Shown here in pieces: positions 44,138-63,296 of a DNA stretch of 64,000 nucleotides (the stretch's first letter is position 1; each line of letters begins with the position of its first letter). The position numbers were made by a program, and so were the translations under genes. Location: the NCBI RefSeq assembly GCF_030268225.1, contig NZ_BSQG01000001.1, positions 485,299 to 549,298 on the forward strand, in the 5' to 3' direction. The notes beneath the pieces are model-generated. The model was not told where the DNA came from. It worked only from the letters and a program-made list of their open reading frames with translations, and did no database searches. Source of the DNA: Nocardiopsis ansamitocini. GTDB taxonomy: Bacteria; Actinomycetota; Actinomycetes; Streptosporangiales; Streptosporangiaceae.

Positions 44138-44911
44138 CTAGTCCAGGAAAGCGCGCAGCAGTGCGCTGGTGCCGTCGAGGTGTTCGGTGACCGCGGCCCG
44201 AGCGGCCTCGGGGTCGCGGGCCTGGATGGCGGCGACGATCGCGGCGTGCTGGGCGCGGCTGTGCTCCAGGTTCTTGGCCAGCATCGGCATGGCGTTGAGC
44301 AGGTCGTTGACGCGCATGCGGGCGTCGGCCAGAGCAGAGGTCAGCGTCACCGAACCCGCGAGCTCGGGGAGGGTGAGGTGGAAGGCGGTGTCGCGGCGGC
44401 GGTAGTCCTCGATGGTCGCGTCCTCTGCCTCGGACATCCGCGCGATTAGGGTCTGCTCCTGCTCCGCGCTGAGCCCTCGGGCCGCCAGGAGAACTGCGCT
44501 GCCCACTTCCAGGGCGAGGCGGAAGGTGAACAGGTCGTCGAGGCCGGAGTCCATCTGGCGCAGGAGCCGCTGGGCCTCGGCCCGGCTCGGGCGGGGCGGC
44601 ACGTAGGTCACGAAGGTGCCACCGAAACGGCCGCGCCGGGACTCCACGTAGCCGGCCTCTTGGAGAGCGCGGATCGCTTCGCGCAGCGTGATGCGGCTGA
44701 CCCCCAGCCGGGCGGACAGCTCGCGCTCAGCGGGGAAGCGTTCGCCGCGCGGCACCACGCCCAGCTTGATCGCCGAGAGCATGCGCTCGACGGTCTCCTC
44801 GAAGGCGTTGCCCGCGCGTACCGGGCGAAAAACCGCCTCGGCCGTCGGCTCGCCGGGCCCGGCCCCGTGCTCGGACCGCGACTCGCCCACACCGACCTCG
44901 CACTCGCTCAC
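44138..44911 (-). CDS. FadR/GntR-family regulator (FCD domain)
   Basis: A 257-residue repressor with an N-terminal winged helix at about 33-105 (LGVVPRGERFPAERELSARL, GVSRITLREAIRALQEAGYV) and a C-terminal helical FCD ligand domain (FRLALEVGSAVLLAARGL to the end). It is 101 nt downstream of the permease on the same strand. In Streptomyces, a GntR-type regulator (EpuRI, from memory) controls the glnA4 ethanolamine genes; by context this is the local equivalent. Confidence 0.88.
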   Translation of the reverse strand: MSECEVGVGESRSEHGAGPGEPTAEAVFRPVRAGNAFEETVERMLSAIKLGVVPRGERFPAERELSARLGVSRITLREAIRALQEAGYVESRRGRFGGTFVTYVPPRPSRAEAQRLLRQMDSGLDDLFTFRLALEVGSAVLLAARGLSAEQEQTLIARMSEAEDATIEDYRRRDTAFHLTLPELAGSVTLTSALADARMRVNDLLNAMPMLAKNLEHSRAQHAAIVAAIQARDPEAARAAVTEHLDGTSALLRAFLD

Positions 44912-45012
44912 GCAGCGCGTCCCCGACGGCTACTTTCTGCTGTTGACGACTACCACCATAGGACGGGAGCCGGCGGCGAAGGACCGGGCCCGCGCCGCCG
45001 GCGCGGCGGGGC

Positions 45013-46473
45013 CTACTTCAGCTCGGACTCGGCCTTCTCCAGCAGCGCGAACTCCTCCTCGGGTGCGTTGGCCACCAGTCGGTGACGCGAGTAGAACCAG
45101 AAGTAGGCGAGGAAGACCACGAAGATCGCCGCGGTGATCCCCGCACCGACCATGTCCACGAAGAAGGTGGCCGCCACCGCGCACAGCGCGAGCACGAAGG
45201 CGATTCCGGTGGTCACCGTTCCGCCGGGCGTGCGGTAGGGGCGCTCCAGGTCGGGTTCGCGGCGGCGCAGCACGATGTGCGACAGCGTCATCAGGACGTA
45301 GGACACCGTCGCGCCGAACACCGCGATGTTGATCAGTTGGTCGCCGTTGCCCACGGCGGTGGCCAGCAGGAAGCCGATCGTTCCGGGGACGATGAGCGCC
45401 AGGTAGGGGGTCTTGCGCTTGCCGGTGACCGACAGCCAGCGGGGCAGGTAACCGGCCCGGCTGAGCGCGAAGAGCTGGCGCGAGTAGGCGAAGATGATGG
45501 AGAAGAAGCTCGCGACGAGGCCGGCCAGTCCCACGTAGTTGACGAAGTCGGCCAGCAGGGTGTTGCCGCCGTATGCCTGGCGCAGCGCCTCGGGCAGCGG
45601 GTTGGTCGACTCCGACATCAGTGCCGCGCCCGCGCCGCCCGGGGCGAGCACGAGCATGCAGGCACCGGTGATGATCAGCACCGTCATTCCACCGATGATG
45701 CCGCGCGGCATGTCGCGCTTGGGGTCGCGCGCCTCCTCCGCTGCCAGGGGGACCCCTTCGATGGCCAGGAAGAACCAGATGCCGAACACGAACGCGCCGA
45801 GGACGCCCGCGTAGCCGAAGGGCAGGAACTCGCTGGCTCCCAGGGCGTCGGTGGGCGCGATGTCGAAGAGGTTGGCGGGGTCGAACTTGGGGACCATGCC
45901 GATGATGAAGGCGACGAGGGCGACCATCGCCACTCCGGTGATGACGAACATCAGCCGCAGCGCCTCCCCCACGCCCCACAGGTGGATGCCCACGAAGATC
46001 AGGTAGCAGGCGAGGTAGACGACCCACGCGGGGGTCCCGCCCAGCAGGCCCAGGGCCTCGACGTAACCACCGATGAAGACGGCGATGGCCGCCGGTGCGA
46101 TGGCGTACTCGATGAGGATCGCGGTCCCGGTGGCAAACCCCCCGAGCGGCCCCAGCGCGCGGCGGGCGAACCCGTATCCCGCACCCGCGGTGGGGAGTGC
46201 GGAGGCGAGTTCGGCCAGGCCGAACACCATGAACAGGTACATCATGCCCATGAGGACGAAGGCGATGAGCAGGCCGCCCCACCCGCCCTCGGCAAGACCG
46301 AAGTTCCATCCGGCGAAATCGCCGGAGATGACGTAGGCGACCCCGAGCCCGGCGAGGAGGACCCAGCCGGCCGCGCCCTTCTTCAGCTGCCGTTTTTGCA
46401 GGTAGTCCGCGCTGGCGGTGGAGTAGTCCGCGCCCTGGATGTGGACGTGTCTCGTACTGTCGTCGTCTGCCAC
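45013..46473 (-). CDS. APC-family permease, ethanolamine-permease-like
   Basis: A 486-residue transporter with about 12 membrane helices. GTG at 46473 gives VADDDSTRHVHIQGADYSTA. Segments such as LGVAYVISGDFAGWNFGLAE and EGVPLAAEEARDPKRDMPRG match the EutP/Eat ethanolamine permease branch of the APC superfamily. Divergent from the glnA4-like gene across a 370-nt control region, so substrate uptake and first enzyme are likely co-regulated. Confidence 0.88.
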   Translation of the reverse strand: MADDDSTRHVHIQGADYSTASADYLQKRQLKKGAAGWVLLAGLGVAYVISGDFAGWNFGLAEGGWGGLLIAFVLMGMMYLFMVFGLAELASALPTAGAGYGFARRALGPLGGFATGTAILIEYAIAPAAIAVFIGGYVEALGLLGGTPAWVVYLACYLIFVGIHLWGVGEALRLMFVITGVAMVALVAFIIGMVPKFDPANLFDIAPTDALGASEFLPFGYAGVLGAFVFGIWFFLAIEGVPLAAEEARDPKRDMPRGIIGGMTVLIITGACMLVLAPGGAGAALMSESTNPLPEALRQAYGGNTLLADFVNYVGLAGLVASFFSIIFAYSRQLFALSRAGYLPRWLSVTGKRKTPYLALIVPGTIGFLLATAVGNGDQLINIAVFGATVSYVLMTLSHIVLRRREPDLERPYRTPGGTVTTGIAFVLALCAVAATFFVDMVGAGITAAIFVVFLAYFWFYSRHRLVANAPEEEFALLEKAESELK

Positions 46474-46843
46474 TTGTCTGTCCGCCTCACTCGTGCGTCG
46501 TGGTGGCCCCGACCGCCCCGCCCCCGCCCTTCGGCCCCACCCCCGAAAGGTATTAGGTCGGTCCATTGCCGATAGCCGATGATGATGCGGCGGTCGCGCG
46601 AAGCGTGTCAAGCATGCGACCGATTTCCCCACCCTCACACGATCGGGATCTGATCGGGTTTCGGCCTGGTTAAGACCGGTTGCCGACCGATCCGTCATTG
46701 ACATCGGGCGCCGCGGGCTGCTTCTATTCGCTCAATGGTCTGGTCCTGAACCTTAAAGAACCGCGGTGGCGGCCGCGCAGGAGCCGCGAACGCCGGGAGC
46801 GTGCACCGTGTGGGACGCCGAGGCGTGGAGAAGGAGCCCGAAG
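46474..46843. promoter_or_regulatory. Divergent promoter region, permease / GlnA4
   Basis: No gene is seen in the 370 nt. Plus strand: TTGACA at 46698-46703 and TTCTAT at 46722-46727 (18-nt spacer), followed by CAATGGTCTGGTCC at 46733-46746. Minus strand: TAATAC at 46555-46550 directly next to a reverse-oriented CAATGGACCGACC (46569-46557). The shared CAATGG start near both promoters may mark regulator sites. Weak but directly visible. Confidence 0.45.
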
Positions 46844-48202
46844 GTGCGAACGAACGACGGCGGCCTGCCCCTGGACGAACTGCGCGAGGACGTGCGGTCC
46901 GGCGCGGTCGACACGGTCCTGGTGGCCTTCACCGACATGCAGGGCCGCCTGCAGGGCAAGCGCCTGTCCGGCCGGTTCTTCCTGGAGGAGGTGCTGGAAA
47001 ACGGCACCGAGGGCTGCAACTACCTGCTCGCGGTGGACGTGGAGATGAACACCGTCGACGGCTACGCCATGTCGTCCTGGGAGACCGGTTACGGCGACTT
47101 CGCGATGGTGCCGGACATGGACACCCTGCGCCGCACACCGTGGCAGGACGGCCAGGTCATGGTGACTGCCGACCTCGCCTGGCACGACGGGTCGGCGGTC
47201 GTGGCCTCGCCGCGCCAGATCCTCAAACGCCAGACCGAACGGCTGGCCGAGCGCGGCTGGCACGCCGAGGTGGGCACCGAACTGGAGTTCGTGGTCTACC
47301 GCGACTCCTACGAGGACGCGTGGAACAGGGGATACCGCGATCTCACCCCCGCCAACCAGTACAACGTCGACTACTCCGTCCTGGGCGGCGCCCGGGTGGA
47401 GCCGCTGCTGCGCCGCATCCGCAACGAGATGACCGGCGCCGGGCTCTACGTGGAGTCGGCCAAGGGCGAGTGCAATCTCGGCCAGCACGAGATCGCCTTC
47501 CGCTACGACGAGGCCGTGCGCACCTGCGACAACCACACCGTGTACAAGAACGGCTCCAAAGAGATCGCCGTGCAGGAGGGGATGTCGCTGACCTTCATGG
47601 CCAAGCCCAACGCCCGCGAAGGCAACTCCTGCCACGTGCACATCTCGCTGCGCGACGCCGAGGGGCGCCCGGTGATGGCCGAGGGGCAGGGAATGTCCGC
47701 CATCGGCGAGCAGTTCCTCGCCGGGCAGGTGGCGGCGCTACGCGAACTGACCCTGTTGCTCGCACCCAACATCAACTCCTACAAGCGGTTCGTTCCGGGC
47801 AGCTTCGCGCCCACGGCGGTCGCCTGGGGGGTGGACAACCGCACCTGCGCGCTGCGCCTGGTGGGCCACGGTCACTCCCTGCGGGTGGAGAACCGGGTCC
47901 CCGGCGGTGACGTCAACCCCTACCTGGCGGTGGCCGCACTCATCGCAGCGGGCCTCGACGGCATCGACCGCGGTCTGGAACTGGGCGAGGCCTGCGCCGG
48001 GAACGCCTACACGTCCGGTGCGCAGACGGTCCCCACGACCATGCGCGAGGCGCTGGAGCTGTGGGAGGGCAGCGCACTGGCCCGCGCGGCCTTCGGCGAG
48101 GAGATGGTGGAGCACTACGCCAACCACGCCCGCGTGGAGCTGGCGGCCTTCGAGTCCGCGGTCACCGACTGGGAGATGTACCGGGGCTTCGAACGGCTCT
48201 AG
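46844..48202 (+). CDS. glnA4: Glutamine synthetase-like gamma-glutamylethanolamide synthetase (GlnA4-like)
   Basis: A GS-fold ligase of 452 residues; GTG at 46844 is chosen because GGAG lies 7 nt before it (an upstream GTG at 46766 is also in frame). Core motifs are VAFTDMQGRLQGKRLSGRFF, TELEFVVYRDSYEDAWNRG, ESAKGECNLGQHEIAFRY, FMAKPNAREGNSCHVHISLR and RVENRVPGGDVNPYLA. No adenylylation Tyr motif. The DSYEDAWNRGYRDLTPANQY insertion is typical of the GlnA3/GlnA4/PuuA group rather than true GS. With an ethanolamine-type permease, aldehyde dehydrogenase, SDR and a C26 hydrolase alongside, gamma-glutamylation of ethanolamine is the best reading. Confidence 0.85.
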   Translation: MRTNDGGLPLDELREDVRSGAVDTVLVAFTDMQGRLQGKRLSGRFFLEEVLENGTEGCNYLLAVDVEMNTVDGYAMSSWETGYGDFAMVPDMDTLRRTPWQDGQVMVTADLAWHDGSAVVASPRQILKRQTERLAERGWHAEVGTELEFVVYRDSYEDAWNRGYRDLTPANQYNVDYSVLGGARVEPLLRRIRNEMTGAGLYVESAKGECNLGQHEIAFRYDEAVRTCDNHTVYKNGSKEIAVQEGMSLTFMAKPNAREGNSCHVHISLRDAEGRPVMAEGQGMSAIGEQFLAGQVAALRELTLLLAPNINSYKRFVPGSFAPTAVAWGVDNRTCALRLVGHGHSLRVENRVPGGDVNPYLAVAALIAAGLDGIDRGLELGEACAGNAYTSGAQTVPTTMREALELWEGSALARAAFGEEMVEHYANHARVELAAFESAVTDWEMYRGFERL

Positions 48203-48258
48203 AGCCTTCACGGTTGTCCAACGATCAGATGTCCACCGCACACGGCGAGGGGGAAGCG

Positions 48259-49626
48259 ATGACGGGGTCGTCGTACAAGGTGATCAATCCGGCGGACGGG
48301 GAGGTGATCGCCCGCGTCGAGCTGGCCTCGGTCGAGGCGACCGACGCGGCGGTCGCCCGCGCGAGCGCCGCGTTCGAGGGCTGGCGCGCCACTCCCCCGG
48401 GCGAACGGGCCCGGCTGCTGCGCGCGGTGGCGGCACGCATCGATGCCCACCGCGAGGAGCTGGCCGCCATCGAGGTCCGCAACGCCGGGCACCCGATCGG
48501 CCAGGCCCGCTGGGAGGCGGGCAACGCGCGCGACGTCTTCGAATACTTCGCGGCCGCCCCCGAACGCGAGACCGGCCGACAGATCCCGGTCCCGGGCGGT
48601 TGGAGCGTGACCTTCGCCGAGCCGCTGGGCGTGGTCGGGGTGATCGTGCCGTGGAACTTCCCCATGCCGATTCTGGCCTGGGGCGCCGCACCCGCGCTGG
48701 CCGCCGGCAACACCGTCGTCGTCAAGCCGGCCGAGCTGACCCCGCTGACCGCGATCCGGATCGGTGAACTGGCCCTTGAAGCGGGGTTGCCCGAAGGCGT
48801 GCTCCAGGTCCTGCCCGGCGCGGGACCGGTCGCCGGGGAACGGCTGGTACGCCACCCCGGCGTCGCCAAGATCGCGTTCACCGGTTCCACCGCCGTGGGC
48901 AAGCGCATCATGGCTGCCTGCGCCGACGACCTCAAACGGGTGACCCTGGAGCTGGGCGGCAAGAGCGCCAACATCGTCTTCGCCGACGCCGACCTGGCCA
49001 AGGCAGCGGCGGCCGCACCCTCCAGCGTGTTCGACAACGCGGGCCAGGACTGTTGTGCGCGGTCGCGGCTGTTGGTGCAGCGCTCGGTGTTCGACGAGTT
49101 CATGGAACTGCTGGAACCGGCGGTCAAGGGCGTGGTCGTGGGCGACCCGTGGGACGAGGCCACCGAGATGGGTCCGCTGATCTCGGCGGCCCAGCGCGAC
49201 CGGGTCGCCGGCTACGTGCCCGAGGGCGCCCCGGTGGCGTTTCGCGGAACGGCTCCCAGCGGACCGGGGTTCTGGTATCCGCCCACGGTCCTGGCTCCGG
49301 TGGACCCGGCCTCCCCGGCGTTCACCGAGGAGATCTTCGGGCCGGTGCTGTCGGTACTGCCCTTCGAGGATGAGGCCGACGCCGTGCGCATCGCCAACGA
49401 CACCGTGTTCGGACTGGCCGGCTCGGTCTGGACCCGCGACGTGGGTCGGGCGTTGCGCGTCTCGCGCGCGGTGAACGTCGGAAACCTGTCGGTGAACTCC
49501 CATTCCGCCGTGCGGTACTGGACGCCGTTCGGCGGCGCCAAGCAGTCGGGGATCGGCCGGGAGCTGGGACCCGACGCGCTGGCGGCTTTCACCGACACCA
49601 AGACGGTTTTCCTCTCCGACGAGTAG
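48259..49626 (+). CDS. NAD(P)-dependent aldehyde dehydrogenase
   Basis: A 455-residue ALDH-superfamily enzyme. ATG at 48259, preceded by GAGGGGGAAG, gives MTGSSYKVINPADGEVIARV. Catalytic motifs are WNFPMPILAWGAAPAL, FTGSTAVGKRI, LELGGKSANIV (general-base Glu), and NAGQDCCARSRLLVQ with nucleophilic Cys. It lies 56 nt after glnA4 and should oxidise the gamma-glutamyl aldehyde intermediate to gamma-glutamylglycine; this substrate is inferred. Confidence 0.9.
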   Translation: MTGSSYKVINPADGEVIARVELASVEATDAAVARASAAFEGWRATPPGERARLLRAVAARIDAHREELAAIEVRNAGHPIGQARWEAGNARDVFEYFAAAPERETGRQIPVPGGWSVTFAEPLGVVGVIVPWNFPMPILAWGAAPALAAGNTVVVKPAELTPLTAIRIGELALEAGLPEGVLQVLPGAGPVAGERLVRHPGVAKIAFTGSTAVGKRIMAACADDLKRVTLELGGKSANIVFADADLAKAAAAAPSSVFDNAGQDCCARSRLLVQRSVFDEFMELLEPAVKGVVVGDPWDEATEMGPLISAAQRDRVAGYVPEGAPVAFRGTAPSGPGFWYPPTVLAPVDPASPAFTEEIFGPVLSVLPFEDEADAVRIANDTVFGLAGSVWTRDVGRALRVSRAVNVGNLSVNSHSAVRYWTPFGGAKQSGIGRELGPDALAAFTDTKTVFLSDE

Positions 49627-49750
49627 ATCCGTCCGTCCCCCGTTACACCCATCGGCCGTCCCGCTCCCGGCCGCGGTGCGTCCCGGAGGCGTTCCGCGCG
49701 ACCGGGCCGCGGGCGGCACCAGGCAGGACCTAGGTAGAAAGAGCAGGGAG

Positions 49751-50515
49751 ATGCAGCGGTTCGAAGGACGCGTCGCCGTCATCACCGGCGCGGGCAGCGG
49801 CATCGGCCGAGCGACCGCGCTGCGGTTGGCCGCGGAGGGCGCCACCATCGTGGCGGTCGACCTGGACACCTCCGCGGGCGAGCGGATCGCCGAGGAGACC
49901 GGCGGGTCGTTCATCGCCGCCGACGTCACCGACGAGGCGGCCGTGGAAGCGGTCTACGCCCGGACGGTCGAGGCGTACGGCAGCGTGGACGTGGCGTTCA
50001 ACAACGCCGGGATCTCCCCGCCCGAGGACGACTCGATCCTGACCACCGGGATCGACGCCTGGCGCCGGGTCCAGGAGGTCAACCTGACCTCGGTCTACCT
50101 GTGCTGCAAGTACGCGCTGCCGCACATGCGCGAGCAGGGCCGGGGGGCGATCGTCAACACGGCGTCCTTCGTGGCGACGATGGGCGCGGCGACGTCGCAG
50201 ATCTCCTACACCGCCAGCAAGGGCGGCGTACTGGCGTTGAGCCGGGAGCTGGGGGTGCAGTTCGCCCGGGAGGGGATTCGGGTCAACGCCCTGTCCCCGG
50301 GACCGGTCAACACGCCGCTGCTCAAGGAACTGTTCGCCGCCGACCCCGAGCGGGCGGCGCGCCGGCTGGTGCACGTGCCGTTCGGACGGTTCGCTGAACC
50401 CGAGGAGATCGCGGCGGCGGTGGCCTTTCTGGCCAGCGACGACGCATCCTTCATCACCGCGTCCAACTTCCTGGTGGACGGCGGCATCTCGGGCTCCTAC
50501 GTGACCCCGCTGTAG
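49751..50515 (+). CDS. Short-chain dehydrogenase/reductase
   Basis: A classical 254-residue SDR (ATG at 49751 after AGGGAG). TGAGSGIGRA at 12-21 binds NAD(P), NNAG is near 89-92, the catalytic Ser-Tyr-Lys set lies in TASFVATMGAATSQISYTAS plus K, and the C-terminus is DGGISGSYVTPL. Within this operon it is the candidate alcohol dehydrogenase converting gamma-glutamylethanolamide to its aldehyde, the step between GlnA4 and the aldehyde dehydrogenase. That role is inferred only from position. Confidence 0.88.
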   Translation: MQRFEGRVAVITGAGSGIGRATALRLAAEGATIVAVDLDTSAGERIAEETGGSFIAADVTDEAAVEAVYARTVEAYGSVDVAFNNAGISPPEDDSILTTGIDAWRRVQEVNLTSVYLCCKYALPHMREQGRGAIVNTASFVATMGAATSQISYTASKGGVLALSRELGVQFAREGIRVNALSPGPVNTPLLKELFAADPERAARRLVHVPFGRFAEPEEIAAAVAFLASDDASFITASNFLVDGGISGSYVTPL

Positions 50516-50552
50516 TCCGTTTCCCGTCCGCGATCACCCTTTGGAGAAGACC

Positions 50553-51275
50553 GTGTCCCCGGCCCGCCCCGTCATCGGCCTGTCCGCCTATTCCGAGCAC
50601 GCCCGGTGGGGCGAGGCGTGGAGTATGCCCGCCACCCTGCTGCCCCAGGCCTATGCCGATGCCGTGGCCGCGGCCGGTGCCCTTCCGCTGTTGATTCCCT
50701 CGGTCACAGGCGTCGCCGCGATCGTGGACCGGGTGGACGCGCTGATCCTGGCGGGCGGGGGCGACATCGACCCCGCCCGCTACGGGGCCTCCCCAGACGC
50801 CGAGACCGCCGGGGTGCGCCCGGAGCGCGACGGCGCGGAGTCCGAACTGCTGGCAGCGGCGCTGGAGCGCGGTACCCCGGTGCTGGGGATCTGCCGGGGC
50901 ATGCAACTGCTGAACGTCGCCCGTGGCGGCACACTGCACCAGCACCTGCCCGACGTGGTCGGCCACTCCGGTCACCGGAGCGAGGTCGCGGTCTTCGGGC
51001 CGCACGACGTCAAGGTCGCGCCGGACTCGCTCACCGCCCGGGCGTTGGGCGAGACCGCACTGTCCGTGCCCAGTTACCACCACCAGGCGGTGGACCGGTT
51101 GGGCCGAGACGTCATCGCCACGGCCTGGTGCGACGACGGCACCGTGGAAGCGGTGGAGTACACCGACCGCCCCGACGTCCTGGGGGTGCAATGGCACCCG
51201 GAGATGGGGGCGGACCCCCGCCTGCTCGCCTGGTTCACCGAACGGGCTCGCGTTTCTGCCCTCGATCACCGCTGA
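50553..51275 (+). CDS. Gamma-glutamyl hydrolase, peptidase C26 (PuuD-like)
   Basis: A 240-residue class-I glutamine-amidotransferase-like hydrolase. GTG at 50553 follows GGAGAAG at 6 nt. Nucleophilic Cys is in LGICRGMQLLNVARGG and the His-Glu pair in GVQWHPEMG; LILAGGGDIDPARYG is also conserved. PuuD homologues cleave gamma-glutamyl amide bonds, so this would release glycine and regenerate glutamate as the last pathway step. It is the last gene of the plus-strand operon. Confidence 0.9.
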   Translation: MSPARPVIGLSAYSEHARWGEAWSMPATLLPQAYADAVAAAGALPLLIPSVTGVAAIVDRVDALILAGGGDIDPARYGASPDAETAGVRPERDGAESELLAAALERGTPVLGICRGMQLLNVARGGTLHQHLPDVVGHSGHRSEVAVFGPHDVKVAPDSLTARALGETALSVPSYHHQAVDRLGRDVIATAWCDDGTVEAVEYTDRPDVLGVQWHPEMGADPRLLAWFTERARVSALDHR

Positions 51276-54965: not shown

Positions 54966-56009
54966 CTACCGGAAAGCGGGCATGACCTCGTTGATGAACA
55001 GTTCGAGGGACACGCGCTTCTCCTTGTGGGGCAGGCTGTTGTCGATCCAGAAGCTGTACTCGTCGATCCCCAGTTCCTCGTACCGGCGCAGCCGTTCGAC
55101 GACCTCTTCCGGGGTGCCGATCATCGCGGTCCGGCGCAGGGACTCGGGCTCGAATTCCGGGCGCTCGGCGAACTTCGCGACCGGGCTGGGCTCCAGGAAC
55201 CCGTTCTCGGGGGTCTGCTTGTTCCCGAACCAGGCGTCGAAGGTGCGGTAGTAGCGCTGGATCGCCTCGGCCGCCGGACGCCAGCCGTCCGGGTCCGAGG
55301 GGCTGTGCACGTGGGTGTGGCGCAGGACCATGATCTCCGGCTTGGCCACCTCCGGGTGGTTGCGGACAGCGGTCTCGAACTTGTCGACCAGGTTCTCGAC
55401 CTCCTCGATGCCCTTCATCAGCGGGGTGACCATCACGTTGCACCCGTTGGCGACGGCGAAGTCGTGCGAGGCGGGGTCGCGCGCGGCGACCCACAGCGGA
55501 GGGTGCGGCTGCTGTAGGGGCTTGGGCACGCTGGTGGACGTGGGGAACTGCCAGATCTGACCGTCGTGCGCGTAGTCACCCTGCCAGAGGGCCCGGACCG
55601 CCGGGACCAGTTCTCGCAGGTGCGTTCCCCCGTCCGCCGCGGGCAGTCCGCCGGCGAGGCGGTCGAACTCGAACTGGTGGGCCCCCCGCGCGATGCCGAT
55701 CTCCGCTCGCCCGCCGCTGATCACGTCGAGCAGGGCGGCTTCGCCCGCGGCCCGGATCGGGTTCCAGAAGGGAGCGATGATGGTGCCCGCGCCGAGGCGG
55801 ATGGTGGTGGTGCGCGCCGCCAGGTAGGCGAGCTGCGGGATCGGGCTGGGCGAGCTGACGAACTCCATGGAGTGGTGCTCGCCGACCCACACTGTGGAGA
55901 ATCCGCCTTGCTCCGCGATCTGCGTGAGCTCCGTCAGGTTCTCGAACTGCTGCTGGGGACCTTCGCTCTCGTCCCATCGCTCCATGTGCGCGAACAGGGA
56001 AAATCTCAC
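54966..56009 (-). CDS. Luciferase-like flavin-dependent monooxygenase
   Basis: A 347-residue bacterial-luciferase-family TIM-barrel (GTG at 56009). Markers are FSTVWVGEHHSMEFVSSPSP, RLGAGTIIAPFWNPIRAAGE, GGRAEIGIARGAHQFEFDRL and NGCNVMVTPLMKG. The EHH motif and loop pattern suit FMN-dependent oxygenases rather than F420 enzymes. The flavin reductase at 62043 in the divergent operon would supply reduced flavin. Last gene of a six-gene operon, 2 nt after the tautomerase gene. Probable role: oxygenative ring or C-N cleavage of the substrate. Confidence 0.9.
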   Translation of the reverse strand: MRFSLFAHMERWDESEGPQQQFENLTELTQIAEQGGFSTVWVGEHHSMEFVSSPSPIPQLAYLAARTTTIRLGAGTIIAPFWNPIRAAGEAALLDVISGGRAEIGIARGAHQFEFDRLAGGLPAADGGTHLRELVPAVRALWQGDYAHDGQIWQFPTSTSVPKPLQQPHPPLWVAARDPASHDFAVANGCNVMVTPLMKGIEEVENLVDKFETAVRNHPEVAKPEIMVLRHTHVHSPSDPDGWRPAAEAIQRYYRTFDAWFGNKQTPENGFLEPSPVAKFAERPEFEPESLRRTAMIGTPEEVVERLRRYEELGIDEYSFWIDNSLPHKEKRVSLELFINEVMPAFR

Positions 56010-56011
56010 TG

Positions 56012-56284
56012 CTACTCCTGGTCTTCGGTGTCGGCGGGCCGGCCGCCGCCGTTGTCGTCGGTCCGAGGGGGCGGTTTTGTCCCGGTGCTGTGCGCGGTGT
56101 CCATCTCCGCGAGGGTCACGTCGCCGGTCGCCCAGTGCGTCCTGGGTACCTCGTGGACGACGACCCGGATGTACTCCGGTCTGGTGTTCACGGTGCGCAG
56201 CACCGAGGCGTGCACCTCGTGGATCAGGTCGCGGATCTGCTCGGGGGAACGGCCCTCGGAAAGGGTGATGTCGATCTGGGGCAT
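56012..56284 (-). CDS. 4-oxalocrotonate tautomerase-like protein
   Basis: MPQIDITLSEGRSPEQIRDL with Pro at position 2 (Pro1 after Met removal, the catalytic base) and YIRVVVHEVPRTHWATGD are 4-OT hallmarks. The 90-residue chain exceeds the 62 usual for 4-OT because of a disordered acidic tail (about 63-90). It follows the aldehyde dehydrogenase by 1 nt. A keto-enol or double-bond isomerisation of a pathway intermediate is expected. Confidence 0.85.
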   Translation of the reverse strand: MPQIDITLSEGRSPEQIRDLIHEVHASVLRTVNTRPEYIRVVVHEVPRTHWATGDVTLAEMDTAHSTGTKPPPRTDDNGGGRPADTEDQE

Positions 56285-56285
56285 C

Positions 56286-57773
56286 TCAGCTCCGGAGGAC
56301 GAACGGGTCGGACACCGGTTCCTCGCTGGTGTTGATCCAGACGCTCTTGAGCCGCGTGTACTCCTTGATGGTCTCGGTGCCGTGTTCGACACCCACCCCG
56401 CTGCTCTTGAACCCCTGGCGCGGCGACATCGGGGACATCGCACGGTAGGTGTTGACCCATACGGTCCCCGCCTCCAGGCGGGTGGCGACGCGGTGGGCCC
56501 GCGCCAGACCGGAGGTCCACACACCCGCCGCGAGTCCGAACTCGGTGTCGTTGGCCAGGCGCACGGCCTCCTCTTCGGTGTCGAAGGGCATGACCGCCAG
56601 GACGGGTCCGAAGATCTCCTCCCGCACCACGCGCATGTCGTTGTGCACGTCGACCAGCACGGTGGGTTCGTAGAAGTACCCGCCGAGGCCGCCGTCCGAG
56701 GAGCGGCCTCCGATCAGGACCCGGGCTCCCTCGCTCCGGCCAAGGTCCACATACCCGGCGACCTTGTCCCGCTGGTCCTCGAAGGCCAGCGGACCGATCT
56801 CGGTAGTCTCGTCGAGCGGGTCGCCCATGCGGATGCGCTCTGCCCGTGCGGAGACGAGTTCGAGCAGTTCGTCGTAGACGGACCTGTGCGCAAGGACCCT
56901 GCTGCCCGCGATGCAGGTCTGCCCCGCGGCCGCGAAGATCCCCGCGACGACGCCCATGGCCGCGTTCGGGATGTTGGCGTCCTCGAACACGATGTTGGGC
57001 GACTTGCCGCCGAGTTCCAGGGTGGAGCCGACGAAGCGGCCGGCCGTGGCGGAGGCGATGCGCGATCCGGTCGAGGTGCTGCCGGTGAAGGAGATCTTGG
57101 CGATTCCACGGTGGTCGACCAGGGCCTGTCCGGCCTCGGCACCGAAGCCGGTGACCACGTTGACGGCCCCCGGGGGGAAACCGGCCTCCACCACCAGCTC
57201 GGCCAGCCGGACGACGGTCGCCGAGGTGTACTCGGAGGGCTTGACCACGACGGTGTTCCCGGCGCAGAGCGCGGGGGCCAGCTTGCTGGTGGTCAGCGTC
57301 AGCGGCGAGTTCCACGGGGTGATCGCCCCGACGACGCCGAGCGGTTCCCGGGCGGTGTAGTTCAGCACCCGCCGGTCCGACGCGGGGATCACGTCGCCTT
57401 GGATCTTGTCCGCCAGACCCGCGTAGTAATAGTAGTACTCGGGCAGCCCCGCGAGCTGACCGCGCATCTCACGCAGGAGCTTGCCGTTGTCCAGGGTCTC
57501 CATGCGGGCGAGCTCTTCGGCGTTCTCGGCGATCAGGTCGCCCAGTCGCCGCAGCAGCCGCCCCCGCTTGGTCTGGCTCAGGTCCCGCCAGCGTGGGTCC
57601 TCGAATGCCTGGCGTGCGGAGACCATCGCGCGTTCGACGTCGGCGGCGTCCCCCCGCGCCGCTTCGTAAAGGGGGTGGCGGGTGGCCGGGTTCGTGCTCT
57701 CGAAGTAGCGTCCGGAGGCCGGCTCGACCGGCTCGCCGCCGATGAGGTGGTTCAGCTTCCTGAGTTCAGACAT
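56286..57773 (-). CDS. Aldehyde dehydrogenase (semialdehyde dehydrogenase type)
   Basis: A 495-residue NAD(P)-dependent ALDH: TPWNSPLTLTTSKLAPALCA, FTGSTSTGSRIAS, LELGGKSPNIVFEDA (Glu) and FAAAGQTCIAGSRVL (Cys). It resembles betaine-aldehyde and hydroxymuconic-semialdehyde dehydrogenases, and a more specific call is not safe. Its start overlaps the hydrolase gene by 8 nt. In the trigonelline pathway an ALDH (TgnC, from memory) acts right after ring opening; this is the analogous candidate. Confidence 0.92.
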   Translation of the reverse strand: MSELRKLNHLIGGEPVEPASGRYFESTNPATRHPLYEAARGDAADVERAMVSARQAFEDPRWRDLSQTKRGRLLRRLGDLIAENAEELARMETLDNGKLLREMRGQLAGLPEYYYYYAGLADKIQGDVIPASDRRVLNYTAREPLGVVGAITPWNSPLTLTTSKLAPALCAGNTVVVKPSEYTSATVVRLAELVVEAGFPPGAVNVVTGFGAEAGQALVDHRGIAKISFTGSTSTGSRIASATAGRFVGSTLELGGKSPNIVFEDANIPNAAMGVVAGIFAAAGQTCIAGSRVLAHRSVYDELLELVSARAERIRMGDPLDETTEIGPLAFEDQRDKVAGYVDLGRSEGARVLIGGRSSDGGLGGYFYEPTVLVDVHNDMRVVREEIFGPVLAVMPFDTEEEAVRLANDTEFGLAAGVWTSGLARAHRVATRLEAGTVWVNTYRAMSPMSPRQGFKSSGVGVEHGTETIKEYTRLKSVWINTSEEPVSDPFVLRS

Positions 57774-58497
57774 GGGCGTGGTCTCCGATGAAGGCGGTGA
57801 TGCTCTCGACGAGCGCCTGCGGCTGTTGCACAGGGAGCATGTGGCGGGCTCCGGGCACGGTGGTCGCGAGACAGTTCGGGATCGCGGCGGCGAGCCGGAG
57901 GGTCATCGCGGGCGTCGACCCCGGGTCCTCCTCACCGGTAACGGCCAGGGACGGCACAAAAATCCGTCCCAGGTCCGGCCCCAGTTCGGCGTCCGCGGTC
58001 GCGAACACCTGATAGCAGTGGAGGAAGGAGTCGACGTCGTTGGCGAGCAGGGTGCGTTCGGTGAGCGCCACCCGGTCCGGGCTGACGTCGGTGCCCTCGT
58101 ACCACCGCCGCAGCGAAGCGGCCGCAGCCGCCCCGAAGTCGACGCGCGCGGTCTCAAGGCGTCGCAGCACGTCCTCGCGCTCTCCCGGCGTGCGTCGGCA
58201 CACCGAGCTGACCGAGGTGAGCGTCGCGACCAGGTCGGTCCGGTGCAGGGCCAGGTGCTGGGCGACGAGCGCTCCGAGCGAGAAGCCCACCACGTGGGAT
58301 CGCGCGGGGATTTTTGTCGCCACGTCCTCGGCGAGGTCCGCCAGGGTCGTTCCCGCGGGCGCCGGGGAGCCCGGGCGGTGACCGAGCAGATCGGGCGTCA
58401 CGACGGTGAAACGGTCGGCCAGCAGCTCGGCCACGGGTTCCCACATGGTGTGGTCGAGCCCGACACCGTGGAGCAGCACGAGGGTCGGTTTGGTCAT
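57766..58497 (-). CDS. Alpha/beta-fold hydrolase
   Basis: A 243-residue hydrolase: oxyanion motif LLHGVGLDHTMWEP, nucleophile elbow VVGFSLGALVAQ (Ser near 93), acid in VTGEEDPGSTP and His in VPGARHMLPVQQP. It resembles PcaD-type enol-lactonases and C-N or C-C bond hydrolases of ring-fission pathways. It is 6 nt after the AA_synth gene and overlaps the ALDH gene. Confidence 0.9.
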   Translation of the reverse strand: MTKPTLVLLHGVGLDHTMWEPVAELLADRFTVVTPDLLGHRPGSPAPAGTTLADLAEDVATKIPARSHVVGFSLGALVAQHLALHRTDLVATLTSVSSVCRRTPGEREDVLRRLETARVDFGAAAAASLRRWYEGTDVSPDRVALTERTLLANDVDSFLHCYQVFATADAELGPDLGRIFVPSLAVTGEEDPGSTPAMTLRLAAAIPNCLATTVPGARHMLPVQQPQALVESITAFIGDHAHV

Positions 58498-58503
58498 GGG
58501 TGT

Positions 58504-59055
58504 CTACTGTTCCGTCGAAAGGTCGGCCAGTCGTTGCTGCGGGCGTCCACGGGAGGCGGCGGCGAGCGCGATGACGATCTCGTCCGGGTGCGGCGCGTCG
58601 GCGACGCGCATCTCCACGGTCTGGTGGTGGGAGCGGATCGTGGCGTCGGTGATGTGCTTCAGCGGGATGTCGAACACCGCTCCGACCCCGCCGCGTTTTT
58701 CCACGGCGGGCAACAGGGTGGTCGCGTTGGCCGCCTCGCGGAAGTGGTTGCCGAACTTCAGCGTGTGGATCAGGGCCGAGCCATGCTCCACCTCCCCGTC
58801 CAAGCCGACGATGGCCGCCTTGCCGTAGGCCTCGGCAGGTTCGCCGAGCGCTTCGAGGACCTCCGGCGCGAGGAGCTTGCCAAGGTCGGAGGCGGTGGCG
58901 TCGATGCCGGGGCCCAGGTCCTGGACGAAACCCTGACCTGCCCAGGGGTTGTCGATGACGGCCGCCACGACGGCGATGCGGGCTGCGGGGTCGACAGGAC
59001 GGCCGCCCTCGGCGGTGGTCACCTCGACGTAGGTGACGATCTTGCGGATGTTCAT
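58504..59055 (-). CDS. AA_synth (DUF1185) family protein, paralogue 1
   Basis: A 183-residue protein, MNIRKIVTYVEVTTAEGGRP opening, with AVIDNPWAGQGFVQDL, GKAAIVGLDGEVEHGSALIH and DAPHPDEIVIALAAASRGRP. These segments define the amino-acid-synthesis (PF06684, formerly DUF1185) family, whose function is not established. It overlaps the next paralogue's stop in an ATGA. Tandem copies suggest a hetero-oligomer or two related steps. Confidence 0.87.
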   Translation of the reverse strand: MNIRKIVTYVEVTTAEGGRPVDPAARIAVVAAVIDNPWAGQGFVQDLGPGIDATASDLGKLLAPEVLEALGEPAEAYGKAAIVGLDGEVEHGSALIHTLKFGNHFREAANATTLLPAVEKRGGVGAVFDIPLKHITDATIRSHHQTVEMRVADAPHPDEIVIALAAASRGRPQQRLADLSTEQ

Positions 59056-59681
59056 GACAGGACGTCCTCCAGGTTCTGCGCGGTTACGGCGCGGTCGGTG
59101 GTGCGGTCACCGATGCGCGGGTGCGGGCGCGGTCCGGTCGATGCCGCGGCGATAACGACGATCTCGTCGGCCCGCGGCGCGTCTCCGACCCGCGCGCTGA
59201 TGGTCTGGTAGTGGCTGCGCGTCGCGGCGTGGGTCTTGTGCCACATCGGCACGATCAGGTCCTCACCGGCTCCGGCGCGTGCGTCGGAGAAACAGATGAT
59301 GGACTCGCCCCGCAGGAACTCGCGCACGAGGTTGCCGAAGTAGGGCGTGTGGATGAGGGCCCCCGCGTGCTCGATCTCCCCGGCGGTGCCGACGATCGCG
59401 GCTTTCCCGAACGCCTCGATCTCGTCCGCTCCGCCCAGGGCCGCGATGAGGTGGTCCGTGAGGATGCCGGCAAGCACCGGCGCGACGCGCCCCTGCTCTT
59501 CGGACAGGTCCGCGAGCGGCTCCCTTCCCGCCCAGGGGTTGCGCACCACCGCAGCCACGCTGGCCCGCCGCGCGGGGTGAACCGGACGCACTCCCGCCTC
59601 TGTGACGACGACGTCCCGATAGGTCACCAGCTTGCGCAGAGCGATCCGCTCGGCGGTGGAATGGGAGGCGATCTCTTGCAT
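59052..59681 (-). CDS. AA_synth (DUF1185) family protein, paralogue 2
   Basis: A 209-residue homologue of the neighbouring gene: VVRNPWAGREPLADL, FGKAAIVGTAGEIEHAGALI and GDAPRADEIVVIAAASTGPR, with a longer N-terminus (MQEIASHSTAERIALRKLVT). It carries one Cys in ESIICFSD that paralogue 1 lacks. First gene of the minus-strand operon, with its promoter in the shared divergent region. Function unknown. Confidence 0.87.
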   Translation of the reverse strand: MQEIASHSTAERIALRKLVTYRDVVVTEAGVRPVHPARRASVAAVVRNPWAGREPLADLSEEQGRVAPVLAGILTDHLIAALGGADEIEAFGKAAIVGTAGEIEHAGALIHTPYFGNLVREFLRGESIICFSDARAGAGEDLIVPMWHKTHAATRSHYQTISARVGDAPRADEIVVIAAASTGPRPHPRIGDRTTDRAVTAQNLEDVLS

Positions 59682-59918
59682 GGCACAGACATTAGATCGT
59701 TCATGTATGCAAGGTCAAGAGTGAGCGCGTCCAGGCGCAACAGCCGGCCAGCACTCCGGCGGACTTCTTCCCAACAAGCCCCCAACTGCAATTATTTGCA
59801 ATCTTTCACGTGCGGGAGGATGACCGCGAACCCAAGTCTTGACATGCGCACTGTGACATGGCTTACGATCTCTTGCATGCCAGAGTCGGTGAAGCGGCTC
59901 GTCGAACCGAGGAGTCCC
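59682..59918. promoter_or_regulatory. Shared divergent promoter/operator region of the catabolic cluster
   Basis: Minus-strand promoter TTGACC (complement of 59713-59718), 16 nt, TCTAAT (complement of 59691-59696), with CATGTATGCAAG (59702-59713) filling the spacer. Plus-strand TTGACA at 59839-59844 with a TACGAT at a long 19-nt spacing. The 13-mer GATCTCTTGCATG occurs at 59670-59682 and again at 59867-59879, one near each transcription unit. GCAA motifs (TGCAATTATTTGCAA near 59785) lie between. Likely sites for the GntR/FCD regulator at 62586. Confidence 0.6.
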
Positions 59919-61601
59919 ATGTCTGAGCAGCCTCCCGCGGGTAGGGAAACTCCCCGCGCAACGGCGCAGGAGAAGCCCGTGCCGGCGGAAGTCGGTATGC
60001 CCGGGCCGGACGGTGCGCCGGGGGCAGGACTCTCCCGCGGCCTCGACGGCGTGGGGAAGCCGCCCACGGGCCGGGGAGTCCGACAACTCGGTTCGGTCTT
60101 CTGGATCTCCATCGCCGTGGCCGTGGTCTTCGTCGCCTGGGCGGCGCTGTTCACCGAAAACCTCAACAGGGTCACAGCGACCTCATTGAACTGGGTCACC
60201 GCGTCGTTCGGATGGGGCTATCTGTTCGCGACGCTGGGCATCCTGGTCTTTCTGGTCTTCCTGGCGTTCAGCCCCGTGGGCCGGACCCGGCTCGGCAAGG
60301 ACACCGACCGCCCGGAGTTCTCCAACCTCACCTGGTTCGCCATGCTCCTCGGCGCGGTGATGGGCATCGGCCTCGTCTCCTACGGCGTCGCAGAGCCCAT
60401 CTCGCACCTCGCGGTCCCGCCCCACGGGCTCGCCGAGCCCAACACCCCGGAGGCCGCTGTCCGCGCCCTCCAGTACTCCTACTTCGACTGGGGGCTACAC
60501 GCCTGGGCGGTCTTCGCCGTGTTCGGGCTCGCGATCGCCTATTCGACCTACCGCAAGGGGCGCCGGCCGCTCGTCAGCCAGCTCTTCACCCCGTTCCTGG
60601 GAGACCGGGTCAACGGCCCGATCGGCAAGGCCATCGACGTCCTCTCCGTCTTCGCCACGCTCTTCGGCACCGCCACGTCCCTGGGCCTCGGAGCGCTTCA
60701 GATCAGCAACGGGATGGGGCGCCTGTTCACAATCCCCGTCAACTCCGTCTTCCAGGTCCTCGTCATCGCGGTGATCACGGCCATCTTCACCATGTCGGCC
60801 GTCACCGGCATCAACAAGGGCATCAAGATGCTGAGCTACGTCAGCGGTGCCATGGCGATCGGCATGTTCGTCTTCGTGCTGGCCGTCGGCCCCACCGTCT
60901 TCCTGGCCAACCTCTACATCGAGTCGCTCGGCCTGTGGGCGAGCGACTTCTTCCGGATGAGCCTGCAGGGCGCCGCCTTCGGCGACCTGGAGTGGATGCA
61001 GGGATGGACCTACTTCATGCTCGCGTGGTGGGTCTCCTGGGGGGCGTTCGTCGGGATCTTCCTCGCCCGGATCTCCCGGGGACGCACGATCCGCGGATTC
61101 ATCGGCGGCGTGCTGACGGTACCGAGCATCGCCTTCTTCACCTGGTTCGCGGTCTTCGGAGGAACAGCCATCCACGTGGACCTGTTCCAAGGCGGGGACA
61201 TCGCGGAACAGACCGCCGCCGACTTCGGCAACGCCTTCTTCGCGACGCTCGACCACCTCCCGCTCTCCACGGTGACGTCCGTGGTCGCGGTCCTGCTCGC
61301 GGTGATCTTCTTCGTCACCAGCGCGGACTCCAACACCTACGTGCTGGGCACGCTGACCTCCCACGGCTCGCTCAACCCGAGCCGCCCGGTACTCGTCCTC
61401 TGGGGTGTGCTCACCGGACTCACCGCGATGGTACTCATGCTCGCGGGCGGCCTCGGCGCCCTCCAGAACACGGTCATCGTGACCTCACTGCCCTTCCTCG
61501 TGATCATCGCCGGCCTGACCATCGCCCTGGGCCGGGAGATCACGGCCGACCACCACGCCACGAACTCCCACACGAAGGAGAAAACCGATGCCGCACGCTG
61601 A
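59919..61601 (+). CDS. BCCT-family (betaine/carnitine/choline-type) transporter
   Basis: A 560-residue secondary transporter with 12 predicted helices and a disordered N-terminal 60 residues. I chose ATG 59919 because GAGGAG precedes it (59878 is an alternative). Family motifs are NLTWFAMLLGAVMGIGLVSY, the Trp-rich YSYFDWGLHAWAVFAVFGLA helix, and FFVTSADSNTYVLG. BCCT carriers import zwitterionic quaternary-ammonium compounds, which narrows the pathway's substrate class. Overlaps the next gene by 14 nt. Confidence 0.93.
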   Translation: MSEQPPAGRETPRATAQEKPVPAEVGMPGPDGAPGAGLSRGLDGVGKPPTGRGVRQLGSVFWISIAVAVVFVAWAALFTENLNRVTATSLNWVTASFGWGYLFATLGILVFLVFLAFSPVGRTRLGKDTDRPEFSNLTWFAMLLGAVMGIGLVSYGVAEPISHLAVPPHGLAEPNTPEAAVRALQYSYFDWGLHAWAVFAVFGLAIAYSTYRKGRRPLVSQLFTPFLGDRVNGPIGKAIDVLSVFATLFGTATSLGLGALQISNGMGRLFTIPVNSVFQVLVIAVITAIFTMSAVTGINKGIKMLSYVSGAMAIGMFVFVLAVGPTVFLANLYIESLGLWASDFFRMSLQGAAFGDLEWMQGWTYFMLAWWVSWGAFVGIFLARISRGRTIRGFIGGVLTVPSIAFFTWFAVFGGTAIHVDLFQGGDIAEQTAADFGNAFFATLDHLPLSTVTSVVAVLLAVIFFVTSADSNTYVLGTLTSHGSLNPSRPVLVLWGVLTGLTAMVLMLAGGLGALQNTVIVTSLPFLVIIAGLTIALGREITADHHATNSHTKEKTDAAR

Positions 61602-62013
61602 GTCCCGCCGGACGAGTATCCAAAGGACCTGGGAGAAGGCCTGGAACCACGGCGAGGTCGACGCGCTCGACGAACTGCACGGTCCCGGCTACCTGCGCCG
61701 CAACGCGGAGTCCCATCCCCTGGACCTCGACGCGTTCAAGGCGTCGATCCTCGCCACCCGCTCCGCCTTCCCCGACCTGACGACAACGGTCGACGAGATC
61801 GTCATCGAGGGCGACCGCGCCGCGATCCGCTGGCACAGCTCCGGGACGCACCAGGGCGCGCTCCTGGGTGTACCCGCCACACGACGCCTCGTGCGGGTGA
61901 GCGGGGCTACCTTCGCCCGGTTCGAGGACGGGCGGATCACGGAAGAGGTCGTGACCTGGGACCCCCGCACGCTGCTCACCGCGCTCGGAATCATCAGCGT
62001 CGGCCAGGACTAG
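61588..62013 (+). CDS. SnoaL-like / ester-cyclase family protein
   Basis: A 141-residue alpha+beta-barrel protein (MPHAESRRTSIQRTWEKAWN, FPDLTTTVDEIVIEGDRAAI, WHSSGTHQGALLGVPATRR, FARFEDGRITEEVVTWD). This is the SnoaL/NTF2-like pattern, with acid/base residues in the cavity. Members isomerise, cyclise or hydrate small molecules, so it may act on an unstable ring-opened intermediate. The exact role is unknown. Confidence 0.85.
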   Translation: MPHAESRRTSIQRTWEKAWNHGEVDALDELHGPGYLRRNAESHPLDLDAFKASILATRSAFPDLTTTVDEIVIEGDRAAIRWHSSGTHQGALLGVPATRRLVRVSGATFARFEDGRITEEVVTWDPRTLLTALGIISVGQD

Positions 62014-62042
62014 TCCCACCCACAACACCGAGGAGCACACCC

Positions 62043-62546
62043 GTGGACACCCTCCCCGCGAAAATCGACACCGACCTCATGAAGCAGGTCAACAAGCAGT
62101 TCGTCACCGGAGTCACGGTCGTGACGGCGATGGACGGCGACACGCCCAAGGGCCTGGCCGTCAACGCCTTCTCCAGCATCTCGCTGGACCCGGCCGTGGT
62201 GATGGTGTGCGTCCAGCACACCTCCTCCACCCACGACTGCCTGTTCCGGACCGAACACCTGGCCGTCAACATCCTGTCGACCGAGCAGCTCGAAGTCGTC
62301 ACCCGTTTCGCGGGCAAGTCCGACGACAAGTTCGCGGGCCTCGACTGGGCTCCGGGCCCCCACGGAAGCCCGCTGATCGCCCGCAGCAGCGCCCGGATGG
62401 AGGTGCTGATCCGGGAGCGGCTCCAAGCCAGCACGCACACGGTGTTCATCTGCCGCGTGGTACACGCCGAGGTCACGGACACCGCTCCCATGGTCTACAG
62501 CGCCGGTCGGTTCTTCGACGGTGCGGCACTTCCTCCCCTGGGATAA
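62043..62546 (+). CDS. Flavin reductase (HpaC/DIM6 family)
   Basis: A 167-residue FMN-binding reductase: VTGVTVVTAMDGDTPKGLAV, NAFSSISLDPAVVMVC, HLAVNILSTEQLEVVTRFAG, and the C-terminal PMVYSAGRFF. GTG at 62043 after GAGGAG. It should deliver reduced flavin to the luciferase-like monooxygenase encoded at 54966 in the divergent operon, completing a two-component oxygenase. Confidence 0.92.
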   Translation: MDTLPAKIDTDLMKQVNKQFVTGVTVVTAMDGDTPKGLAVNAFSSISLDPAVVMVCVQHTSSTHDCLFRTEHLAVNILSTEQLEVVTRFAGKSDDKFAGLDWAPGPHGSPLIARSSARMEVLIRERLQASTHTVFICRVVHAEVTDTAPMVYSAGRFFDGAALPPLG

Positions 62547-62585
62547 TCGACCACGCGTTTCACTCATGGAGAAGGAGGCGTCCCA

Positions 62586-63296
62586 GTGGCGCGAGGCACG
62601 CGCGATTTGAGCTCCACATCCATTCAGGCCACCGTCATCAAGGAGATGCGCGGACGCATCATCAGCGGCAGCATCGAACCGGGCAGCCCTCTCTCGGAGC
62701 TCGCCCTGGCCGAGGAATACGGGGTCAGCCGCACACCGGTCCGTGAAGCGCTCAAGCAGTTGCAGACCGAGGGCCTGGTCGAAATCCGGCCCAGGGTCGG
62801 CACCTTCGTCACGGCTCCGTCCAGACGGGAGATCACGGAGCTCTTCGAGATGAAGGAGCTGCTCGAAGGCGCGGCGGCCAGGCTCCTCGCGCTCCGGGGA
62901 CGGGTGCCGGAGATCGATCAGCTGGAACGCAACCTTCGGGAATCCGACGAGGCGGTCGCACGGGACGACCGGAAGCGCTACGCCGATCTGGTGCACGAGT
63001 TCCACGACCTCGTCGTCCGGGGAGCCGACAACCACAAGTTGGAGGCGCATTACCGGACGCTCATGAACCAGCTCGCCTACCCCCGCCTCGTGATGACGTC
63101 GCTGAACCAGCCCGGACGTCCGCTCCAGTCCGAACGCGAACACCACCTGGTGCTGGAACTGGTGCGGTCGAAGGACAGTGACAGTGCCGAGCGGGTCATG
63201 AGGGAGCATGTGCGGGAGAGCCGTCGCGCCCTGCTGGCGAGCCTTCCTGGGTCGAGTGTCCACGACGGCCGTGGGAGTGGGCGTCCCCGATCGTGA
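62586..63296 (+). CDS. GntR-family regulator, FCD domain
   Basis: A 236-residue regulator: winged helix at about 10-80 (VIKEMRGRIISGSIEPGSPL, EEYGVSRTPVREALKQLQTE) and helical FCD domain (IDQLERNLRESDEAVARDDR, HEFHDLVVRGADN, EREHHLVLELV with candidate metal-binding His). GTG at 62586 after GAAGGAGG, 39 nt after the flavin reductase. As the last gene of the transport operon it is the likely regulator of both divergent units. Confidence 0.9.
   Translation: MARGTRDLSSTSIQATVIKEMRGRIISGSIEPGSPLSELALAEEYGVSRTPVREALKQLQTEGLVEIRPRVGTFVTAPSRREITELFEMKELLEGAAARLLALRGRVPEIDQLERNLRESDEAVARDDRKRYADLVHEFHDLVVRGADNHKLEAHYRTLMNQLAYPRLVMTSLNQPGRPLQSEREHHLVLELVRSKDSDSAERVMREHVRESRRALLASLPGSSVHDGRGSGRPRS

Follow-up and report, generated by a model that had tools for sequence, protein, structure and literature searches.

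What does a divergent ten-gene cluster in Nocardiopsis ansamitocini import and degrade, and how closely does it follow a known route? The cluster lies in the window, the 64,000-nucleotide stretch of DNA that was analysed as a whole, and an earlier note drawn from the letters alone proposed import and oxidative ring opening of an N-methylpyridinium betaine such as trigonelline or homarine. From homology, gene order, co-conservation, motifs and operator-like sites we infer every reaction, the substrate and the binding of the regulator, and on this basis the locus probably encodes an actinobacterial Tgn-type pathway for uptake and breakdown of an N-methylpyridinium-carboxylate betaine. The likeliest substrate is trigonelline, an alkaloid of plants and of coffee. 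Ring-opening chemistry of the Tgn type is very likely; trigonelline as the main substrate is favored with more moderate confidence. The cluster shares most of the sequence features that mark Tgn systems and differs from them in its importer, its accessory proteins and its split AA_synth protein. The Tgn-type core is already known; what is new is the division into two proteins, AAS1 and AAS2, with complementary loss of motifs, and a conserved putative operator at the promoters of both arms.

Gene content and organization

All ten open reading frames are present at the coordinates below, and every family assigned to them in the earlier note scored above its Pfam cut-off in profile matches.

54966-56009, minus strand: LLM-class (luciferase-like) oxygenase of the TgnB family, predicted ring-opening component (PF00296)
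56012-56284, minus strand: 4-OT-type tautomerase with N-terminal Pro1 (PF01361)
56286-57773, minus strand: aldehyde dehydrogenase (ALDH), TgnC homologue (PF00171)
57766-58497, minus strand: alpha/beta hydrolase, TgnD homologue (PF12697)
58504-59055, minus strand: AAS2, AA_synth protein (PF06684)
59052-59681, minus strand: AAS1, AA_synth protein, overlapping AAS2 by 4 nt (PF06684)
about 59919-61601, plus strand: BCCT carrier, zwitterion type (PF02028)
61588-62013, plus strand: SnoaL-like protein (PF07366)
62043-62546, plus strand: flavin reductase, corresponding to TgnA's N-terminal domain (PF01613)
62586-63296, plus strand: GntR/FCD regulator (PF00392 and PF07729)

The minus-arm junctions, read from the LLM oxygenase through the tautomerase, ALDH, hydrolase and AAS2 to AAS1, measure +2, +1, -8, +6 and -4 nt, matching the range of -8 to +6 nt given before, and about 237 bp separate the minus arm from the plus arm. 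Some 3.7 kb away from the cluster, consecutive genes for a GntR/FCD regulator, an amino acid permease, a glutamine-synthetase-like ligase, an ALDH, an SDR and a peptidase C26 (window 44138-51275) make up a gamma-glutamylated amine (Puu-like) operon.

Conservation among actinobacteria

A survey of 395 genomes from the taxonomic class of the source found an LLM oxygenase at E <= 1e-60 in twelve, the source genome counted. All ten genes occur in the same order in G008 (L027), and all ten are also present in L133, L134, L136, L137 and L138, making six other genomes in total, while L135 has nine, missing the tautomerase alone, and L139 has a partial LLM gene on its own. Relatives whose LLM is at least 72% identical to that of the window keep nine or ten genes in this order, apart from Arthrobacter dokdonellae, which has no BCCT gene, and the lone partial LLM; the layout is therefore not due to chance. 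Comparison of actinobacterial neighborhoods bears out co-conservation, the absence of which would have spoken against the earlier note, with nine or all ten genes in seven other actinobacteria.

More distant loci retain parts of the set. Three actinobacterial genomes of 1.6-1.8 Mb (L140, L141, L142) have a compact set of AA_synth, hydrolase, LLM and ALDH genes, and no flavin reductase was detected near these sets. G618 (L155) contains an LLM with 53% identity together with GntR, AAS1, AAS2, hydrolase and ALDH genes. In G023 (L028), the otherwise same cassette lacks the tautomerase and carries a different LLM, only 28% identical to that of the window, so the substrate of the LLM may vary; this other LLM has no strong relatives in the plasmid collection.

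The LLM oxygenase and its family

Along its full length the window LLM shares 50.1% identity with TgnB of Acinetobacter baylyi; against the homologue on Sinorhizobium meliloti pSymA the figure is 51.6%. Among matches sampled from 877 plasmid records in a collection of 72,556, identity falls from 75% (Arthrobacter) to 45-55% in tgn-like operons and then straight down to about 30%. A maximum-likelihood tree places the window LLM in an actinobacterial clade inside a TgnB-like family. Next to this clade stand the proteobacterial TgnB clade and another drawn from actinobacteria with very small genomes, and five outgroup LLMs have very long branches. Ten residues are invariant in 38 members of the TgnB family and absent from five other LLMs. 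The window LLM did not cluster with F420- or alkane-type enzymes, a grouping that would have spoken against the earlier note, and the two-component system of LLM and flavin reductase described there is supported.

Other LLM genes also occur near AA_synth genes. A second LLM family, whose members are 45-53% related to one another, lies beside them at L028 7627-8766, L156 7341-8435 and L157 6849-7979; the L028 member is the one that takes the place of the TgnB-like LLM in its cassette. A third subgroup, 45-47% identical to the window LLM, is found in Rhizobium binae and Ensifer canadensis (L146 3680-14029; L147 1914-14020) with neighboring genes for AA_synth, a carboxymuconolactone-decarboxylase-like protein and a polar amino acid ABC importer, and probably acts on a different substrate.

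Comparison with Tgn loci

Perchat and colleagues reportedly described in 2018 how cleavage of the C5-C6 bond of trigonelline yields a formamido hydroxybutyrolactone, which is oxidized to formamido-methylene-succinate and then hydrolyzed to CO2, methylamine, formate and succinate semialdehyde. Scanning the collection with an alignment of LLM relatives recovered the corresponding region of A. baylyi DSM 14961 (L043), the type strain and not ADP1, with the gene order AA_synth, hydrolase, reductase, LLM, ALDH, NCS1 permease, porin, SSADH. The genome holds exactly one AA_synth gene. TgnF, which stimulates TgnE-dependent oxidation of succinate semialdehyde in A. baylyi, is homologous to HcdD of the former DUF1185 family (PMC7913881), so the single AA_synth gene is tgnF, and its neighbors would be the genes for TgnD, TgnA, TgnB, TgnC, the permease, the porin and TgnE.

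The relationship to the Acinetobacter pathway proposed from the layout is supported in that the comparison with TgnA-D gave homologues for all core parts. Both clusters combine an LLM, a flavin reductase, an ALDH, an alpha/beta hydrolase, AA_synth and a GntR regulator. In the window, however, a BCCT carrier replaces the NCS1 permease and porin, AA_synth is duplicated and diverged, a tautomerase and a SnoaL-like protein are extra, the C-terminal domain of TgnA and an in-cluster SSADH are lacking, and the genes are laid out in two divergent arms. The tautomerase and the SnoaL-like protein hold as additions to the Tgn set, and the BCCT carrier is another. AA_synth itself, which had also been listed as an addition, does not, because TgnF already belongs to this family; the idea that AA_synth is foreign to Tgn is rejected, and only the duplication is added.

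Two further loci show how this core varies. The S. meliloti pSymA operon (L036 12816-24673), close to nifB and presumably the trigonelline region, has the five-gene core in the A. baylyi order, with an ABC importer that includes a PotD-like binding protein, a single AA_synth gene and SSADH inside the operon. Its flavin reductase is the protein of a solved, uncharacterized structure, 3rh7 (SMa0793), a TgnA-type homologue that is also the best structure match of the TgnA model. Plasmid pDCT5 of Arthrobacter dokdonellae resembles the window in its GntR, AAS1, AAS2, hydrolase, ALDH, tautomerase and LLM (75%) genes and differs in having an NCS1 permease in place of BCCT, an SSADH, and a fusion of SnoaL to the flavin reductase in one ORF (L029:5490-6428). 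The single fused protein suggests that the functions of SnoaL and the flavin reductase are linked. The pyridine pathway of Arthrobacter sp. 68b (PyrA-E), compared here by description only, likewise comprises two-component LLM ring opening, an ALDH, an amidohydrolase and SSADH, and its substrate is neutral.

The remaining core enzymes match their A. baylyi counterparts to different degrees. The ALDH is 46% identical to TgnC; the flavin reductase is 39% identical to the reductase domain of TgnA, and the C-terminal domain of TgnA is absent from all actinobacterial reductases compared. Between the hydrolase and TgnD identity is just 28%, but the triad motifs GxSxG, DP[GN]ST and RHM are present in both. 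No SSADH of the TgnE type lies within the ten-gene cluster; a homologue elsewhere in the genome has 47% identity to TgnE and scores best against SSADH family models. An SSADH is likewise absent from the flank examined in many proteobacterial tgn loci, which makes an in-cluster TgnE a weak criterion. Heterotetrameric sarcosine-oxidase-like genes flank the tgn clusters of A. baylyi (L043 1243-6412) and Phyllobacterium (L033 832-5851), where they may serve the released methylamine.

Transport

Alignment with solved BCCT structures revealed an MGIG segment without the Asp of the choline carrier and an aromatic box of tryptophans in WGLHAW and AWWVSW. This glycine-rich TM3 motif and Trp box support the import of a zwitterionic quaternary amine, as had been supposed from the family alone. 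A BCCT gene immediately follows tgnC in eight alphaproteobacterial tgn operons; elsewhere, tgn operons rely on NCS1 or on ABC importers of the PotD type. The window BCCT is 35-39% identical to the alphaproteobacterial tgn BCCTs versus 40% to the other BCCT of its own genome, and close orthology with the former is therefore rejected; the carrier looks to have been recruited more than once. The simplest reading of these sequence relationships is that different importers were repeatedly recruited for one zwitterionic substrate, a pattern that would favor trigonelline and would make the importer (BCCT, NCS1 or ABC) an exchangeable part around a constant core.

Regulation

The region between the arms contains the following elements.

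59674-59687 and 59701-59714 (region 59669-59714): GntR-type operator-like palindromes, at most 3 mismatches to TCTTGCATGCAAGA, kept in relatives
59839-59844 (TTGACA) and 59864-59869 (TACGAT), plus strand: promoter-like element of the BCCT arm, conserved in relatives
59871-59884, plus strand: operator-like palindrome resembling TCTTGCATGCAAGA, after the TTGACA-TACGAT element

Three such copies with at most 3 mismatches in 310 bp compare with 0.005 expected under a Markov model, and similar palindromes are found in intergenic regions of other actinobacterial clusters, whose GntR/FCD regulators are 52-87% identical. The palindrome at 59674-59687 overlaps the start codon of AAS1, which would account for the recurrent MQE start of AAS1 in close relatives. 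Both promoters thus appear to carry a conserved putative operator, through which the GntR protein could govern both arms.

Proposed route and alternative substrates

In the proposed route, the BCCT carrier would bring in the betaine and the flavin reductase would hand reduced flavin (FMNH2) to the LLM oxygenase, which would split the ring between C5 and C6 with no hydroxylation step beforehand. The resulting N-methylformamido aldehyde would close to a hydroxylactone, which the ALDH is predicted to convert to formamido-methylene-succinate. Release of formate and methylamine by the hydrolase would leave 2-formylsuccinate or its enol; loss of CO2 would then give succinate semialdehyde, to be oxidized to succinate by the SSADH whose gene lies elsewhere in the genome. 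The enol/formyl-acid or the semialdehyde stage may be where the tautomerase and the AAS1/AAS2 pair act, a placement that, like any role of SnoaL, we infer from context. Such a route would extend trigonelline-type pyridinium degradation to soil actinobacteria.

Several features count against this reading. At 50% identity the LLM could still act on a different pyridinium, the hydrolase is distant from TgnD, the reductase is without the second domain of TgnA, SSADH is not in the cluster, and the published pathway has no place for a tautomerase, SnoaL or a second AA_synth. The same ring opening could serve homarine, N-methylpyridinium, pyridine or a substituted pyridine, which we regard as a real though minority possibility. 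The actinobacterial LLM clade does split from that of A. baylyi, with diagnostic residues that are consistent but few, at only four positions; the extra enzymes suggest altered downstream chemistry, and L028 shows an alternative LLM in the same cassette. An SSADH gene accompanies the Arthrobacter cluster and many tgn operons, however, which fits conversion of a 3-carboxylate to succinate semialdehyde; since the clusters point to this product, homarine is less likely than trigonelline, and a neutral pyridine does not suit a BCCT importer.

It is improbable that generic ring-fission enzymes here process a non-pyridine betaine (stachydrine, carnitine, glycine betaine) or some other metabolite. 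BCCT families do transport such betaines, and the ALDH scores best, below cut-off, on betaine-aldehyde and HpaE models, but the LLM belongs to the Tgn family and the core genes match the Tgn set, and no Rieske, TMA-lyase or demethylase genes were found in the cluster. Least credible of all is an F420-dependent or alkane/alkanesulfonate-type LLM among an unrelated mixture of neighbors: the weak NCBIfam F420 matches of the window LLM were every one below cut-off, its family is discrete from F420 enzymes, gene order is strictly conserved, and a flavin reductase partner is always present in the clusters of close actinobacterial relatives. Models of the Rut pyrimidine pathway gave RutF and RutD scores far below cut-off and no RutA match among those listed, and F420-type, alkanesulfonate-type and Rut assignments of the cluster proteins were all rejected on their cut-offs. 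Trigonelline remains the favored substrate over homarine.

The AA_synth pair and the tautomerase

AAS1 and AAS2 are each about 41-52% identical to proteobacterial TgnF-type proteins and form clades of their own (support 100/99 for AAS1 and 98/97 for AAS2), both separate from TgnF; relatives of AAS2 with known structure are 2qtp and 3byq. Single TgnF-type proteins retain two motifs, a loop of the form G-x-G-[FY]-V-E-[DN]-L and a tail of the form R-P-x-x-R-I-G-[DN]-R. The window copy of AAS1 has kept the tail (RPHPRIGDR) and lost the GQGFVEDL loop, and AAS2 has kept the loop (GQGFV[EQ]DL) and lost the RIGDR tail. Across ten pairs, including that of the window, AAS1 retains the tail alone and AAS2 the loop alone; His174 (3byq numbering) is missing from AAS2 in nine of the ten. 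The L155 pair is less clear-cut, with a nearly intact loop in AAS1 and, in AAS2, a variant loop (GKGYVDDL) and no tail.

The AA_synth structure paper describes a C-terminal dimer interface at which the beta2-H1 loop of one protomer meets the stretch following beta7 in its partner, with salt bridges Glu90-Arg176 and Glu92-Arg172. With the loop and tail motifs assigned to these two regions by sequence position, complementary loss across the interface implies that an AAS1/AAS2 heterodimer would hold two composite sites, one of them intact and the other degenerate in both its parts. We predict that the two proteins form a heteromer, probably a two-part version of the TgnF-type helper protein; since the motifs were defined after inspection of the alignments, this is offered as a hypothesis and not a result. 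Paralogues with complementary losses in apparently one inter-subunit site make AA_synth function testable.

Pro1 and Arg11 of the tautomerase are invariant in all eight homologues found, and Arg39, present in the window protein, is replaced in A. dokdonellae; the best PDB match is 3mb2. Pro1, Arg11 and Arg39 are the classical 4-OT residues, and the set would suit an enol dicarboxylate, for example the enol of 2-formylsuccinate. The tautomerase appears helpful and not essential, since it is missing from L028, L135 and L155. More speculatively, and on balance doubtfully, AAS1 and AAS2 could be an obligate heteromer whose one intact composite site, formed by the AAS2 loop and the AAS1 tail, is catalytic and works with the Pro1 tautomerase to convert 2-formylsuccinate from enol to keto form or to decarboxylate it. 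In the Acinetobacter pathway this step has been taken to be spontaneous or merely "assisted". If true, this would be the first defined enzymatic role for the PF06684 "amino acid synthesis" family.

Tandem AA_synth pairs also occur in a second pyridine-carboxylate context, directly after genes for 6-hydroxynicotinate reductase and a UPF0280-type protein (annotated hypothetical in L121), in Sulfitobacter, Pseudosulfitobacter and Neorhizobium (L119 7083-10585, L120 7092-10576, L121 7559-11148). The reductive nicotinate route passes via 2-formylglutarate, as the trigonelline route would via 2-formylsuccinate, which by analogy suggests that AA_synth proteins act on 2-formyl-dicarboxylates.
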